Positions 3,668 to 9,891 of a DNA stretch of 12,655 bases are shown in pieces (position 1 is the first letter of the stretch; every line of letters begins with the position of its first letter). The position numbers and the translations under genes were made by a program. The stretch covers positions 1 to 12,655 of the forward strand of contig DFGZ01000086.1 in assembly GCA_002371295.1 (NCBI GenBank), read 5' to 3'. Under the pieces are notes generated by a model that saw nothing but the letters and a program-made list of their open reading frames with translations, was not told where the DNA came from and made no database searches. The DNA comes from Oribacterium sp. UBA3737 (GTDB lineage Bacteria; Bacillota_A; Clostridia; Lachnospirales; Lachnospiraceae).

Positions 3668-3976
3668 CTATGTTTCGTCTTCCTCCTCATATCCCTCGCA
3701 CGGGCCTATCCCCTGCATATGGCCATCAAAGCACTGGATCTGTGTAGGATCCTTCCAGTTACACTTTTCGCATATAGTGCCACGGAGCTTTTCCATTCCT
3801 TTAAACCATGCCTCAAATTCTGCTGCACCCTTTACTTTCATCCAGCTATCAAAGGCTTTCATTTCCTGCTCGCTGTAGAAAAATATACCCATCTCGAACA
3901 CCTGATGTGCTACTCCGTTTTTATCCAGTGCAAGCATTATTTCCTTTTCGCATTCATCGCCTATCATTGAATCCAC
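3668..3976 (-). CDS. Small phage protein with C-terminal Cys cluster
   Basis: This 102-residue protein starts at a GTG (3976), supported by GGGAGG 8 nt upstream and by overlap with the end of the HUH replication gene; ATG 3967 is the alternative. The N-terminal half is helical and aromatic (IFFYSEQEMKAFDSWMKV and AEFEAWFKGMEKL). The C-terminal third has CEKC, a single Cys and a late GPCEGYE, a possible zinc site. It lies between the HUH gene and the methyltransferase. AGGAGG near its own 3' end may serve the methyltransferase, although the spacing to ATG 3664 is long. No family is recognised. Confidence 0.7.
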   Translation of the reverse strand: MDSMIGDECEKEIMLALDKNGVAHQVFEMGIFFYSEQEMKAFDSWMKVKGAAEFEAWFKGMEKLRGTICEKCNWKDPTQIQCFDGHMQGIGPCEGYEEEDET

Positions 3977-4812
3977 TTTTCTTTCCTCCCCTTCTTACCG
4001 TCAATCCGGTACATGATAACAAGAGTGTGCCGGTATCCGGCATCACTTACTTTTGTTTCGACGCGTTCAAGTGTGTAGCCTGGATACTTGTCGGCCCAAA
4101 ATTGCTTATCGTCGATATACATAGTCGAGGCTTCTTCTAACCTCTTCTTGTTCCACTTCGTATCATTCGGTTTTGGTGTGATAGGTTTTTGAAGTCCTCT
4201 GCTCTGTCGCCAGCTCCTATCACACCGCTTATTCTTGTTTATATATTTAACAAGGCTTTCCACGGATCCATGTTCCACTTCCAGACGGTCACAACGGCAC
4301 ATGCCTAACTTGTCACCGTTCCGGTCTGTCCATAGATCTTCTAGTATCTCTCTTGTGAGTCCTTCTGTTTTTTCTATGATTGCATGATGATGGTGCCGAC
4401 CTACGAAGCTGCCGTCTTCCTGTTCGGTAACATACTCTGTAGCCATTACCCACTTAGGATGTTTGATATCATGCCGATCACAATATCTGTACAAACGTTT
4501 TATATAATTACTCCAATCATCATCAGCTCGTTTATGGTCTGACGGATCCGGAAGATGTTCATCGTTGTATGTCAGGGTAACAGAATAATCACCCTGCTTG
4601 AAATTCGTATTAACTAGCTGCACATGATAGCGCTTTGCTCTTGATGCGTTGTAACATTGCTGTGCTAACTCAGTAGCATTCTGCTTCTTCCTTCTGGTGG
4701 AGTGCTTATGCTCCTTCTCGGAGATCTGATACAGGTCGACTTCCATATAACCTGCTGTATCGTATGAGCTACCGCATATATGTTTCTGTTCCCTGAAATA
4801 TACCTTACCCAT
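3964..4812 (-). CDS. HUH-type rolling-circle replication initiation protein
   Basis: This 282-residue protein has the three hallmarks of HUH single-strand endonucleases. Motif 1 is VTLTYNDEHLP (78-88). Motif 2 is the metal-binding histidine run GRHHHHAII (139-146). Motif 3 is the Tyr-x-x-Lys VKYINKNK (188-195, Y190 and K193). Such enzymes nick one origin strand, stay covalently bound to the 5' phosphate through the Tyr, and prime rolling-circle synthesis. Similar proteins occur in Clostridia phages and resemble the replication proteins of small ssDNA phages. An in-frame TAG sits two codons before ATG 4812, which fixes the start; AGGAG abuts the ATG, an unusually tight spacing that may lower expression. 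The gap upstream is highly structured and carries repeats, as expected of an origin. The role in this tailed phage (initiator versus accessory relaxase) is inferred. Confidence 0.8.
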   Translation of the reverse strand: MGKVYFREQKHICGSSYDTAGYMEVDLYQISEKEHKHSTRRKKQNATELAQQCYNASRAKRYHVQLVNTNFKQGDYSVTLTYNDEHLPDPSDHKRADDDWSNYIKRLYRYCDRHDIKHPKWVMATEYVTEQEDGSFVGRHHHHAIIEKTEGLTREILEDLWTDRNGDKLGMCRCDRLEVEHGSVESLVKYINKNKRCDRSWRQSRGLQKPITPKPNDTKWNKKRLEEASTMYIDDKQFWADKYPGYTLERVETKVSDAGYRHTLVIMYRIDGKKGRKEKWIQ

Positions 4813-4844
4813 CTCCTAAAGCTACCCTTAAATAATTTACTATG

Positions 4845-4922
4845 TCTCTTAATTTAAGAGAGATATACAAGCCCCATCGGCGCTTCCTGCGCCCACGTTT
4901 TATTAAACTGTCGTTCTCTTAA
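4845..4922. repeat. TCTCTTAA iteron-like repeats upstream of the HUH gene
   Basis: Two copies of the octamer form a perfect 17-bp inverted repeat (TCTCTTAATTTAAGAGA, 4845-4861) and a third, direct copy lies at 4915-4922. Between them is a GC-rich hairpin GGCGC-TTCCT-GCGCC (4879-4893) in otherwise AT-rich DNA. Repeats plus a hairpin next to a replication gene are typical of a replication initiator binding and nicking region, but no nick site can be assigned from sequence alone. The palindrome could instead be an autoregulatory operator or, in RNA, a hairpin 33 nt before the start codon of the HUH gene. Confidence 0.5.
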
Positions 4923-4927
4923 ATGAA

Positions 4928-5002
4928 TGTCTCCGGACGGAGTTGAACCGTCTATCAATCGCAAAATTTTGCGACCGCTCTTCCGATTGAGCTATCAGAG
5001 AT
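4928..5002 (-). tRNA. tRNA-like element with degenerate anticodon loop (no assignable anticodon)
   Basis: A cloverleaf can be read on the minus strand. The acceptor ATCTCTG pairs with CGGAGAC (six of seven pairs, one G-U). The D-arm is GCTC-AATCGGAA-GAGC with the usual A14, G18G19 and A21. The anticodon stem is GTCGC/GCGAT, the variable loop has 5 nt, and the T-arm is GACGG-TTCAACT-CCGTC with a consensus T-loop. Departures from a working tRNA are an extra A between the acceptor and T8A9, a first-pair mismatch, A at position 48, no encoded CCA, and an 8-nt loop AAAATTTT without U33. The anticodon arm is in fact a 16-bp palindrome (TCGCAAAATTTTGCGA, 4959-4974). It is more likely a tRNA mimic or decayed tRNA than a decoding tRNA. 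Confidence 0.5.
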
Positions 5003-5088
5003 ATAAAGCGCCCGGTGTTTTTTAAGGTGAAACATGTCTTCGGGCTAATCGCCTAAGCAACGGGGATTAGTAGCGTGCCGGACGCAAA

Positions 5089-5134
5089 GCCTGCTGACGG
5101 ACTGCTCCGTCAATGTGGCTGGATCCACGCAGGC
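5089..5134 (-). ncRNA. Compact three-way junction
   Basis: The outer stem GCCTGC/GCAGGC (5129-5134 with 5089-5094) encloses two hairpins, GTGG-loop-CCAC (5115-5128) and a 7-bp TGACGGA-GCAG-TCCGTCA (5095-5112). Only two unpaired bases (5113-5114) lie at the junction. Seventeen pairs in 46 nt with almost no linker is unlikely to arise by chance. It is a substructure of the larger structured region and, as DNA, could extrude as a branched cruciform. Confidence 0.6.
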
Positions 5135-5168
5135 CATCTATAAAATGGAGGATCTTATAGAAGCTTTC

Positions 5169-5477
5169 TTATTTTGATGCCGTAATATCTAACGGACATG
5201 TCGGAATTTTAAGCCATGCCTCAACAGTCAGATCGTTGTCAATGATTCCTCCCGGACAGAATTTGCCTTCCTCGTAGCAGTTACAGTTATTAAGCATTAG
5301 CCCATGATGATAATCCGTATTTCCTCTCTTTCCGGATACACTAAACGCAAGACCGTAAATATCTGCTTCTGGTGGATCCGATACCGGATACCACACGCCG
5401 AAAGAATGTTTTTTGTCTTTCTCTGAGTCTTCTCTCATCTGTTTAAGAATCAGCTTCTTATCTTTTTCGCTCATCAT
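5169..5477 (-). CDS. DUF551-like phage protein (divergent)
   Basis: This 102-residue protein starts MMSEKDKKLILKQM and then has VWYPVSDPPEADIYGLAF (about 29-46) and near the end VEAWLKIPTCP. The W-x-PVS-x-PPEAD opening and the EAW-x-x-IP closing motif match the DUF551 layout (usually WIPVSERLPE and HWMPLPE), though the end is degenerate. The middle holds NCNCYEEGKFC, possibly metal binding. The frame is open to 5537, but ATG 5477 follows AAGGAGAAGGAAG and is the natural start; the next codon, ATG 5474, is equally possible. It starts 11 bp after the stop of the LemA-partner gene, and its stop marks the edge of the structured gap. Confidence 0.7.
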   Translation of the reverse strand: MMSEKDKKLILKQMREDSEKDKKHSFGVWYPVSDPPEADIYGLAFSVSGKRGNTDYHHGLMLNNCNCYEEGKFCPGGIIDNDLTVEAWLKIPTCPLDITASK

Positions 5478-5488
5478 CTTCCTTCTCC

Positions 5489-6187
5489 TTATCCTGCCAC
5501 CACTGCAATTAACGCTACTATCGGAATTACTATCCAAATGATTGCAAACACTATCCCGAAATCAGTGCTCACATCTGCTTTTGCAGCGCTTTCTATATCG
5601 GCTCCTTCGTGGAAGACCGCGTCTTTAACGGTTCCTCCGGTCATATTGCCAAACACTGTCCCCTCAAGAGTTCCTCCGGCACCTCTAAACACGTACCTAT
5701 CAACTAAACCTATCTGTATAGTGCTGATGTAATGCTGACCAATTCCAGATATCTCATCGAATCTTATTTCAATGCCTTTGAATCGAACTGTATCGCTATG
5801 CCAGGATCTTCTTTCAACTTCATCCCAAGTCCAATACACCTCTGTGTGCTTCTTTTTATGTCCCTCGCTGTCTGTAGTGGTATATGTTCTTGTGTGGCGG
5901 GTGTAATGCTCTTTCACTCGTGACAAAGAGATATAAGCTCCGCCTATTTCTGCAACCGTCACAGGATTCAATGCTTCCATCTGGCCATAACCATAAGCAT
6001 TGCCAGCACTGGTATCTGCTGCATATTTATAAGCCTCATCGGACTCTATCCTCAGAGCTTTGTTGAATTTGGCATTACGTTCCATCTGCCAGGTATCTAT
6101 ACCGCCTTTGATTGCAAGGCCTATGGCTATATATGCGCAAACAGAAATCACAAAGATACATATAGCCTTTATTTCATCTTTATCCAT
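5489..6187 (-). CDS. LemA-associated membrane protein with two terminal membrane helices
   Basis: This 232-residue protein has a membrane helix near each end (about 8-27, ICIFVISVCAYIAIGLAI; about 210-231, GIVFAIIWIVIPIVALIAVV). Between them lies a soluble domain of about 180 residues with ALNPVTVAEIGGAYISL, KEHYTRHTRTYTTT and the aromatic VYWTWDEVERRSW. Proteins of this type recur beside LemA genes in Firmicutes, as I recall, and the domain has no known activity. The frame extends to 6241, but ATG 6187 overlaps the LemA stop by 8 bp (ATGGATAA), which indicates coupled translation; no good ribosome site supports the upstream starts. The two proteins probably form a membrane complex; that is inference from coupling. 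Confidence 0.75.
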   Translation of the reverse strand: MDKDEIKAICIFVISVCAYIAIGLAIKGGIDTWQMERNAKFNKALRIESDEAYKYAADTSAGNAYGYGQMEALNPVTVAEIGGAYISLSRVKEHYTRHTRTYTTTDSEGHKKKHTEVYWTWDEVERRSWHSDTVRFKGIEIRFDEISGIGQHYISTIQIGLVDRYVFRGAGGTLEGTVFGNMTGGTVKDAVFHEGADIESAAKADVSTDFGIVFAIIWIVIPIVALIAVVAG

Positions 6188-7090: not shown

Positions 7091-8068
7091 TTATCCTAGC
7101 TTTTCAAGATTTGCTATAGCATTAATTACAATTTTTTCAGGCAAGCCCATCATTTTTGCCACTTCCGACGGGTCCGCTCCTAGTGCGTACATCTGCTCTA
7201 TCTTTTCCCGGTCCTTTTGGGTAAGATAACCGGTTCTTAATGGTGCGCCATCCTTTGGTGGTCTGCCGCGTTTTCTCTCCTGCTGCTCTGTATCAGGTTT
7301 CTCCGGGAGTTTGTTCTCTGCATCCGCTTTCTCCTGTTCCGGCATCTCCACTGGTATTAAGGATGACTCTGTATCCTTAATCTCTTTTCCGGTTTTATCC
7401 GAAAGATATGTCTCTGCGTCTACGTTCATGCGGGCAAACTCAAGTATCTCCTGCATACATCTTTCGCAGTAATCTCGCCCGCACTCATCCGCCGTAAGTT
7501 TCCTAATGGGATCCGGCATTTTCTGATATACTTCTTGTCCGTCAATTCTGTTTATGTAATCAACGCTCAGTTTCATAGGGAATCCGTCTATTGTTTCCCC
7601 ACACCTGTCACAACAAATAATTATCTTTTTCATCTTTTGTTCCTTTATGCTTCCCCAAACAGACATGCCTAAGTACCAATTAAGCACCTTCCTTGCTTCA
7701 CCGGCACCGTAACAGACAATCACGAAGTTGCCATTCTTTTTAAGCTTCTTCATGACATCTATCTGTGATTTAGTAGGCTTGTTAGGCTCTACCTTCATTT
7801 CGATATACAAGCTATGGTATCCGTGCCTCGACACCGGAAGTATCAGATCTGGGATGCCTGCAAGCACTCCGGCCCGCTTAAGGTTCGCCCCTTCCCTTTT
7901 ATCCCTGGCTCCACCGTTAGGAACATGGAATAAAAGATTTAAGTCCGGATACAACACAGCGTTAAATCTCGCCCAGCTTATAAGTGCTGCCTGTTCAGAC
8001 TCTTCCGAGCACCGCAGCACTTTACGGCCTGTATATGTTTTTACGTATTTCGACTTTGCGGATATCAT
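7091..8068 (-). CDS. VRR-NUC nuclease fused to a Zn/AT-hook/HTH protein
   Basis: This 325-residue protein looks like two proteins in one. Residues about 20-135 form a VRR-NUC domain (PD-(D/E)xK fold): ESEQ (23-26), LFHVPNGG (46-53), GIPDLILP (71-78, D74) and YIEMK (88-92), with the D...ExK catalytic set intact. VRR-NUC enzymes cut branched DNA. From M146 (MKKIIICCDRCGETI) there is a putative zinc site CDRC with later CERC (201-204), an AT-hook-like RKRGRPPK (265-272), and a C-terminal helix-turn-helix (about 283-322, DPSEVAKMMGLPEKIVINAI). M146 (ATG 7633) retains AAGGA 8 nt upstream, so the second half may also be made separately. The start ATG 8068 shares ATGA with the previous stop. The DNA-binding parts may direct the nuclease to replication junctions; this is inference. 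Confidence 0.8.
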   Translation of the reverse strand: MISAKSKYVKTYTGRKVLRCSEESEQAALISWARFNAVLYPDLNLLFHVPNGGARDKREGANLKRAGVLAGIPDLILPVSRHGYHSLYIEMKVEPNKPTKSQIDVMKKLKKNGNFVIVCYGAGEARKVLNWYLGMSVWGSIKEQKMKKIIICCDRCGETIDGFPMKLSVDYINRIDGQEVYQKMPDPIRKLTADECGRDYCERCMQEILEFARMNVDAETYLSDKTGKEIKDTESSLIPVEMPEQEKADAENKLPEKPDTEQQERKRGRPPKDGAPLRTGYLTQKDREKIEQMYALGADPSEVAKMMGLPEKIVINAIANLEKLG

Positions 8069-8511
8069 GAGTCGAGATCCCACTTGGTATTTTTACGAAT
8101 GGAGACATTGATCTTGCTGTCTCCTTTCTTCTTTATATAGATAGTCTTTATTTCGTCTAGCTTTATAGTGGCGCTCTTAACGTCACCTGCTGCAATCAGA
8201 TCAATGAGTCCGTCACACTGTTTCTCTATAGCTTCCGAAAAACATATCCGTAATTGCTTGTTGAGAAGACGGATATTATTCTTTGCTTTCTCTGCTGATT
8301 CTTCGAGCCTTGCATGATCAATCGCCTCTTTACAGGTACATGTTCTGGTTGCGTCAATGTCTACCTGCTCCTGGGATACAAAGTCTGTAACGTAGGTCAT
8401 CGCTCTCATCTGTCCGCAATACTTGCATGTTCCCGTTTTGTTATACATATCTTTTCCAAGGAACGTGCCGTCCTTGATGTCTGCCGGTCTCTTCTCTGCG
8501 ATTTTTCCCAT
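8065..8511 (-). CDS. Phage protein with N-terminal zinc knuckle
   Basis: This 148-residue protein has GTCKYCGQMR (about 27-36) and later RTCTCKEA (about 56-63), a plausible Cys4 zinc site. A long charged helix (about 66-110, ARLEESAEKAKNNIRLLNKQL) and a basic C-terminus (KKKGDSKINVSIRKNT) follow. A nucleic-acid role is plausible from composition only. ATG 8511 has AAAGG 11 nt upstream, a mediocre site. Its stop overlaps the start of the VRR-NUC gene (ATGA), so the two are probably co-translated. It resembles conserved hypothetical proteins of clostridial phages; no family name can be assigned. Confidence 0.7.
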   Translation of the reverse strand: MGKIAEKRPADIKDGTFLGKDMYNKTGTCKYCGQMRAMTYVTDFVSQEQVDIDATRTCTCKEAIDHARLEESAEKAKNNIRLLNKQLRICFSEAIEKQCDGLIDLIAAGDVKSATIKLDEIKTIYIKKKGDSKINVSIRKNTKWDLDS

Positions 8512-9462: not shown

Positions 9463-9891
9463 TTAATTGAACGGAAGTCCTTCCGCCTCTACTCCATCCG
9501 GGATATTCATAAAGCCATCAGCATCCATATTTCCAAGGGGCTGTCCACTTTCCTGTGATCTCTTACTCTCTGCAAACTCCATGTGTTCAACCACTACATC
9601 AGTGGTATAGACTTTCTGTCCCTCTTTATTTGTATAGGATCCTGTCTGGAGCCTTCCCTCTATTGCAAACTTAGTGCCTTGAGTTCCGTACTTCTCCAAA
9701 AACTCCGCCGTCTTGCCGAAAGCAACGCAGCTTATAAAGTCTGCTGTCTGCTGCTCCTGGTTGCCTTCTTCTCTTTTTACCTTACGATCAACAGCCAGGG
9801 TGAAGCGTGCTATCGCTTTCTGATCCTGGCCTTGCGACCAACGGACATCGGCATTTCTTGTGAGCCGGCCCATTAAAATTACTTTATTCAT
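9463..9891 (-). CDS. ssb: Single-stranded DNA-binding protein
   Basis: This 142-residue protein has a classic SSB OB-fold: MNKVILMGRLTRNADVRW (1-18), IARFTLAVDRKV (27-38), ADFISCVAFGKTAEFLEKYG (50-69), AIEGRLQTGSYTN (76-88) and TDVVVEHMEF (97-106). It coats single-stranded DNA during replication and recombination as a tetramer. The C-terminal tail is acidic but ends in EGLPFN rather than the usual DDDIPF, so the partner-binding tip is altered by an extra Asn. ATG 9891 directly follows the stop of the 52-residue gene. Encoding SSB alongside an HUH nickase and a branched-DNA nuclease supports phage-directed DNA synthesis with long single strands. Confidence 0.95.
   Translation of the reverse strand: MNKVILMGRLTRNADVRWSQGQDQKAIARFTLAVDRKVKREEGNQEQQTADFISCVAFGKTAEFLEKYGTQGTKFAIEGRLQTGSYTNKEGQKVYTTDVVVEHMEFAESKRSQESGQPLGNMDADGFMNIPDGVEAEGLPFN

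Follow-up and report, generated by a model that had tools for sequence, protein, structure and literature searches.

The 356-nucleotide gap located at positions 4813-5168 of the analysed DNA (the window, a stretch of 12,655 nucleotides that forms part of a 44,258-base virus record, 44.3 kb) is very likely the origin region from which a temperate tailed phage replicates its genome by the rolling-circle mechanism; the HUH replication initiator (Rep) encoded beside it would cut at CTTG/TATA. The comparison of the DNA upstream of related Reps has shown a conserved, single-copy covarying hairpin and a putative nick core that are tied to this Rep family, and this conserved region is very probably the double-strand origin of the phage, as judged from its sequence. 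The original prediction had considered an RNA regulator of replication, a rolling-circle origin or a dual element; the origin has been supported and a new structured RNA has not, because what the relatives share is limited to the hairpin and the nick core. The kind of element, a rolling-circle double-strand origin, is already known and the member is new; no description of this origin was noticed in a literature search that had most subscription journals outside its reach.

The gap separates a short ORF (5172-5537) from the gene of the 282-amino acid HUH protein (3964-4812, minus strand), and the genes on either side have the same orientation. The upstream ORF had been described as DUF551-like, an assignment that was not borne out, as the ORF had no Pfam or PHROG family match at E 1e-3. 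The features found are the following:

3964-4812, minus strand: HUH replication initiator (Rep), 282 amino acids, REP_ORF2-G2P, identified by Pfam PF23343 and phrog_3584.
4843-4875, minus strand: nick core GGGGCTTG/TATATC...TTAAATTAAGAGACA, with the predicted nick at the slash, conserved in relatives.
4845-4861, minus strand: perfect dyad TCTCTTAA-A-TTAAGAGA, located 3' of the nick, from the sequence and the DNA fold.
4867-4868, minus strand: predicted nick CTTG/TATA, between G4868 and T4867, placed by alignment with phiX174 and by the DNA fold.
4879-4893, minus strand: hairpin of the origin, GGCGC-AGGAA-GCGCC, adjoining the nick core on its 5' side, with a stem kept in relatives despite sequence change.
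4927-5003, minus strand: degenerate tRNA-like cloverleaf with a AAAATTTT anticodon loop, from ARAGORN and Rfam RF00005 (31.6 bits).
5008-5085, minus strand: long-range stem with internal hairpins, in the lineage-specific folded block, the outer stem being present in the minimum free energy (MFE) and centroid structures.
5088-5135, minus strand: three-way junction that leaves two junction bases unpaired, in the RNA MFE and centroid structures, with the same branches as DNA.
5137-5161, minus strand: AT-rich hairpin TCTATAAGAT...TTTATAGA, directly after the upstream gene, from the sequence and the fold.

The Rep protein matched Pfam PF23343 (E 9.4e-9, 35.9 bits, above the curated cut-off of 27.8) and phrog_3584, a replication initiation protein family (E 1.4e-59). 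An alignment of 27 Rep sequences has been carried out with the window protein and 26 homologues picked from the 120 listed of 199 found, or from the loci. The nearest relative has a Rep 98% identical and lies on a 29-kb contig outside the fetched loci. Residues H141, H143 and Y190 were invariant and H142 was kept in at least 90% of the sequences; when two more distant sequences were included (29 in all), H143 and Y190 were still invariant, with H141 and H142 kept in at least 90%. Y190 is the candidate catalytic tyrosine, with a putative role as nucleophile. A search by sequence among solved structures found no relative of Rep, and a match by fold was modest. A ribosome-binding-like AGGAG motif (window positions 4812-4817, minus strand) directly abuts the Rep ATG, a spacing below the usual one; in the relative locus L002 seven bases lie between the motif and the start, which is a GTG codon.

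Related Reps were found by tblastn in 18 phage records. With profile scans, the best 80 of 101 matches in viral contigs corresponded to 79 loci, and 6 further loci came from genomes; an initial scan of genome contigs found no relatives. Upstream stretches of up to 450 nt (293 nt in L053) were analysed for 81 of the 85 loci, leaving out L021, a near duplicate of L020 that was counted in the core-copy test, and L055, L072 and L085, whose contigs begin at Rep or immediately ahead of it. When the gap was locally aligned with the fetched loci, matches at E 0.05 or better were found only within positions 4835-4907 (gap positions 262-334), and among the weaker alignments (E 0.1 to 5) were a 26-nt match in L017 and a match in L029 that extended to gap position 229. 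The block 4908-5168 had no counterpart in the fetched loci at E 0.05 or better, and no sequence similar to the three-way junction was found in the fetched relatives. The gap DNA had no match in phage and plasmid DNA, and it matched none of 397 genomes in a search in which an empty answer is uninformative. A shared nick motif with free variation elsewhere had been named in advance as the pattern that would favour an origin over a regulatory RNA, and this is the pattern that the homologous gaps display.

The shared region consists of the covarying hairpin followed, on the HUH-gene strand, by GGGCTTG/TATATC...TTAA.TTAAG.GACA, where the slash marks the predicted nick. With the origin folded as DNA, this position is unpaired and lies between two hairpins; the dyad on its 3' side was, by eye, partial or missing in most of the aligned relatives. 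The alignment of close origins comprised 17 distinct sequences including the window, many loci being near duplicates. GGGCT.GTATA was invariant in 17 of 17, and CT(T/G)GTATA was also found in all of them (T in 11 sequences, G in 6), an identity that is partly built in because a looser pattern selected the sequences. The core was present upstream of Rep in all 24 listed loci with a Rep 48-72% identical to that of the window, 22 with the canonical form and 2 with a variant. Each canonical locus contained exactly one core in its fetched sequence, on the Rep strand and with none on the opposite strand, 56-303 nt before the Rep start (extrapolated from tblastn). The variant loci L030 and L031 have one upstream sequence, with GGCCTAGTATATTGG behind an 8-bp hairpin and CCTAGTATA as the nick-site part; this variant scored 22.7 bits (E 3.6e-5) with a sequence model built on the core. 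No core was found in the approximately 100 nt of upstream sequence of L010, with a Rep 64% identical.

Among the more distant Reps, a looser pattern revealed a related core upstream in 14 of 58 loci. The 15 aligned distant sequences (these 14 and L008) all contained CTTGTAT, which is partly built in by the pattern, mostly followed by GGGGTATTAAC. In the other 44 loci no related core was found by pattern within 450 nt, so the core is not universal for the wider Rep family. The sequence model added one weak match among the distant loci (L089, E 0.006), and gave further weak matches in L113 and L138, irrespective of their place relative to Rep. In the 44.3-kb record the model had a single match at E up to 5. 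The site is tied to its Rep gene, being present once in each record or fetched locus and located ahead of the gene. Two matches (G001 and G558) were obtained in 392 genomes with strict filters that lose weak matches; G001 has a close Rep, and the match in G558 lies inside an ORF read as transketolase. A search of viral contigs with a DNA pattern for the origin yielded 4 stretches. A motif count over all loci (59) was set aside, since overlapping loci inflate it. Cumulative GC skew showed no turn at the origin site.

The hairpin just 5' of the core has been analysed in the same sets of sequences, with a count of stem pairs that allowed variable loop length and with shuffles of the segment, which keep base composition only, as control. 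The 17 close sequences had a mean of 5.65 of 6 pairs, compared to 3.82 in the shuffles (sd 0.16, highest 4.29 of 300), and the stem was weaker in the distant group (4.93 of 6 pairs, compared to 3.84). The stem sequences differ among loci, being GGCGC/GCGCC in the window, TGCAGCC/GGCTGCA in L022, ACGCCGC/GCGGCGT in L034 and TTGCCGCC/GGCGGCAA in L037. RNAalifold found 4 of 4 pairs changed on both sides, each in 2 to 4 sequences, with a break or gap at each pair in 2 to 5 of the 17 sequences; the alignment energy was small (-0.68 kcal/mol), which we attribute to the different loop lengths. When each stem was tested singly against base-composition shuffles (p<0.05), 12 of the 17 close and 5 of the 15 distant sequences were significant, and L020, L023, L029, L039 and L101 were among those that were not; the hairpin is therefore a feature of the group as a whole rather than of every sequence in it. 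The covariation that had been sought among homologous gaps was thus present in the origin hairpin, while the three-way junction and the cloverleaf had no counterpart in the fetched loci. On the plus strand, the hairpin and its T-rich tail resemble a terminator (1 found, compared to 0.4 expected in shuffles). L022, L024, L025 and L027 have in common another inverted repeat, rich in GC and located upstream of the origin around CCGGA...GCCGGTTG, which was not seen in the window and is a candidate clade-specific element.

The way in which Rep would bind, nick and displace a strand may be proposed by analogy with phiX174 and pC194-like replicons. The Rep encoded directly downstream would recognise the hairpin 4879-4893, its proposed binding element, together with the adjoining core, and would cut the Rep-coding strand at CTTG/TATA (4868/4867); the 3' end at the nick would then prime leading-strand synthesis, with displacement of the Rep-coding strand.

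The plus-strand origin of phiX174 (NC_001422, position 4306) is annotated right after CTTG and reads CTTG/ATATTAATAAC, where the slash marks the annotated position. In both origins CTTG precedes an AT-rich core that contains TATTAA. The phiX174 sequence starts here as CTTG/ATAT, whereas the close relatives described here have CTTG/TATA and the distant ones mostly CTTG/TATGGGGTATTAAC. In contrast to phiX174, the gap origin has a hairpin just 5' of the core, is located upstream of rep and not within the initiator gene, and belongs to a tailed double-stranded DNA phage. In Rep_1-like, pC194-like origins the nick site is CTTGATA and lies upstream of rep, according to PMC10378824; the nick tetranucleotide and the position upstream of rep are thus alike in these plasmid double-strand origins and in the gap. 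Unlike them, the gap has T, not A, after the nick, no plasmid match and no CS-6 site, and its Rep was assigned to PF23343. Two traits of the phiX174/pC194 class, CTTG before an AT-rich core and a hairpin beside the nick, are found here as CTTG/TATATC and the covarying stem.

The origin now predicted is precise and testable for a family of tailed gut phages that includes the Faecalibacterium phages Toutatis and Lelie, and the Reps of these phages are annotated there only as replication or hypothetical proteins. For the probable replication start of this family it provides a base-level nick prediction that is common to phiX174. A strikingly folded phage gap can also be an origin plus fast-changing filler, rather than a new RNA class.

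The folding that had drawn attention to the gap has been confirmed. The minus strand of 4813-5168 had an MFE of -114.3 kcal/mol as RNA (z -3.85) and z -3.84 with DNA parameters, with 0 of 100 dinucleotide shuffles as good in each case, and the predicted structure contained, as described, the three-way junction with its two unpaired bases (5135-5088) and the cloverleaf (5003-4927). The plus strand folded as RNA gave z -3.94, and since both strands fold equally well, the folding energy is no argument for RNA. The block 4908-5168, from which the origin is removed, had z -3.91 as RNA and -4.23 as DNA (0 of 200 shuffles as good in each). A scan of the 44.3-kb record in 220 overlapping 356-nt windows, with 30 shuffles per window, found 6 more extreme than the gap (z -4.62 in that run) and 25 at z -3 or lower; the fold is not unique and its weight is lower than first claimed. 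The gaps of relatives were folded for 21 picked loci, of which L037 and L075 were dropped (31- and 3-nt gaps by the ORF rule), the L034 gap started after its nick site and L035 was limited to 420 nt. A sense z of -3 or lower was found in 15 of the 19 measurable gaps, the lowest being -8.86, and the sense strand was the better-folding one in 11 of 19. This is an excess over the record windows, as a rough control, because the gaps and the record windows are of different length and origin. In several relatives (L028, L036) the folded part was on the opposite side of the nick.

Folding that is kept without common sequence could reflect a single-strand origin or a structural need of the displaced strand. 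The block 4908-5168 may tentatively be considered a single-strand origin for the complementary strand, recognised, once its strand is displaced, by the RNA polymerase or primase of the host, which we regard as possible and somewhat doubtful. Its strong folding as DNA and the recurrence of strong folding in relatives are in line with this function, and single-strand origins are described as located upstream of the double-strand origin, according to PMC10378824. However, the Rep strand of the gap has no CS-6 site TAGCG[A/T], and with this motif missing the role stays a guess; the gap has no plasmid match, the folded part lies beyond the nick in L028 and L036, and single-stranded circles are not required of tailed phages. 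A comparably tentative explanation is that chance and the old insertion of a tRNA account for the fold, and that the 65-bp origin is the sole functional part. Similarly strong folds occur in other windows of the record and no counterpart of the block was found, both of which agree with chance, whereas the excess of strongly folded gaps among the relatives, with the rough control mentioned above, points away from it.

The tRNA-like cloverleaf of the original prediction was recovered by ARAGORN at 5003-4927 and by the Rfam tRNA model, with 31.6 bits against a cut-off of 29. This score was obtained in a focused search and the match was absent from the fast Rfam gathering searches, so negative Rfam results should be taken with caution. 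In comparison with bacterial tRNA (RF00005), the D and T arms are good and near canonical, whereas the acceptor stem is imperfect with an A-C mismatch, there is a three-base spacer, and the palindromic AAAATTTT loop gives no usable anticodon. These faults in the anticodon and acceptor, in place of a seven-base loop with a readable anticodon and an intact acceptor stem, led to the rejection of a functional phage tRNA, and the cloverleaf is taken as a tRNA-derived relic or mimic; it could be a captured, decayed tRNA gene. No exact match to the pattern of the element was found in viral contigs, and among the phage matches listed there were only short ones, covering up to 35% of it and some of them in tRNA genes. 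An attachment site for a tyrosine integrase in a tRNA gene was also rejected, because the integrase found is a serine recombinase (phrog_95, with DNA invertase matches).

That the gap is a dual element, in which the origin (4835-4907) is accompanied by an independent tRNA-like RNA (4927-5003), either cleaved by RNase P so as to separate the upstream and rep mRNAs or acting as a tRNA mimic, seems unlikely. The Rfam score above the cut-off, the near-canonical D arm and T loop (by reading) and the lack of any tRNA call by ARAGORN in 3000 shuffled gaps (mononucleotide shuffles, which keep base composition only) speak for such an RNA. However, none of the other 81 upstream stretches gave a tRNA call, and the acceptor, spacer and anticodon defects fit a decayed gene as well.

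Less probable still, and in our opinion very unlikely, is a new structured regulatory RNA, with the gap transcribed as a rep mRNA leader or a small RNA and its fold controlling Rep synthesis. Folding well under that of the shuffles, the position between genes of the same orientation and the strong sense-strand folding in most of the measurable relatives are compatible with it, but the relatives have no sequence in common with the window beyond the origin, the complement reaches an equally good fold, and little more than half of the relatives fold better on the sense strand. Moreover, no sigma-70-like promoter, the type searched for, was found in 4700-5300, where 1.2 were expected by chance. 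The Rfam search added no support either, tRNA being the sole family that reached its cut-off, and a laxer search added four matches below theirs. The large non-coding folded RNAs GOLLD and ROOL are known from phage genomes; these and riboswitches were rejected because the gap had no Rfam match to them at the cut-offs. The gap has no fold in common with its relatives beyond the origin hairpin, and a new RNA class was rejected because the homologous gaps share nothing with the window beyond the origin.

A joint function of both parts is similarly improbable. In such an arrangement the rolling-circle origin would be coupled to a tRNA-derived fold with a role in replication. As displaced single-stranded DNA or as an RNA copy, the fold would recruit or block a factor of the host, be it primase, RNA polymerase, RNase P or a tRNA-binding protein, and would in this way time complementary-strand synthesis or Rep expression.

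Other genes were noted around the gap. The window that contains Rep also encodes a VRR_NUC nuclease domain (7094-8083), an ORF of unknown function (8068-8511, phrog_24368) and a single-strand binding protein (9466-9891), and in L002 an ORF that reads as similar to single-strand binding proteins lies just upstream of the origin. Elsewhere in the 44.3-kb record, a large serine integrase (L136:5697-7154, minus strand, phrog_95, E 4.6e-133) suggests that the phage is temperate. The same record encodes a reverse transcriptase (L136:1458-2609, phrog_1423, E 3.3e-94) which, by reading, belongs to a diversity-generating retroelement whose possible target is an upstream ORF (L136:75-716).
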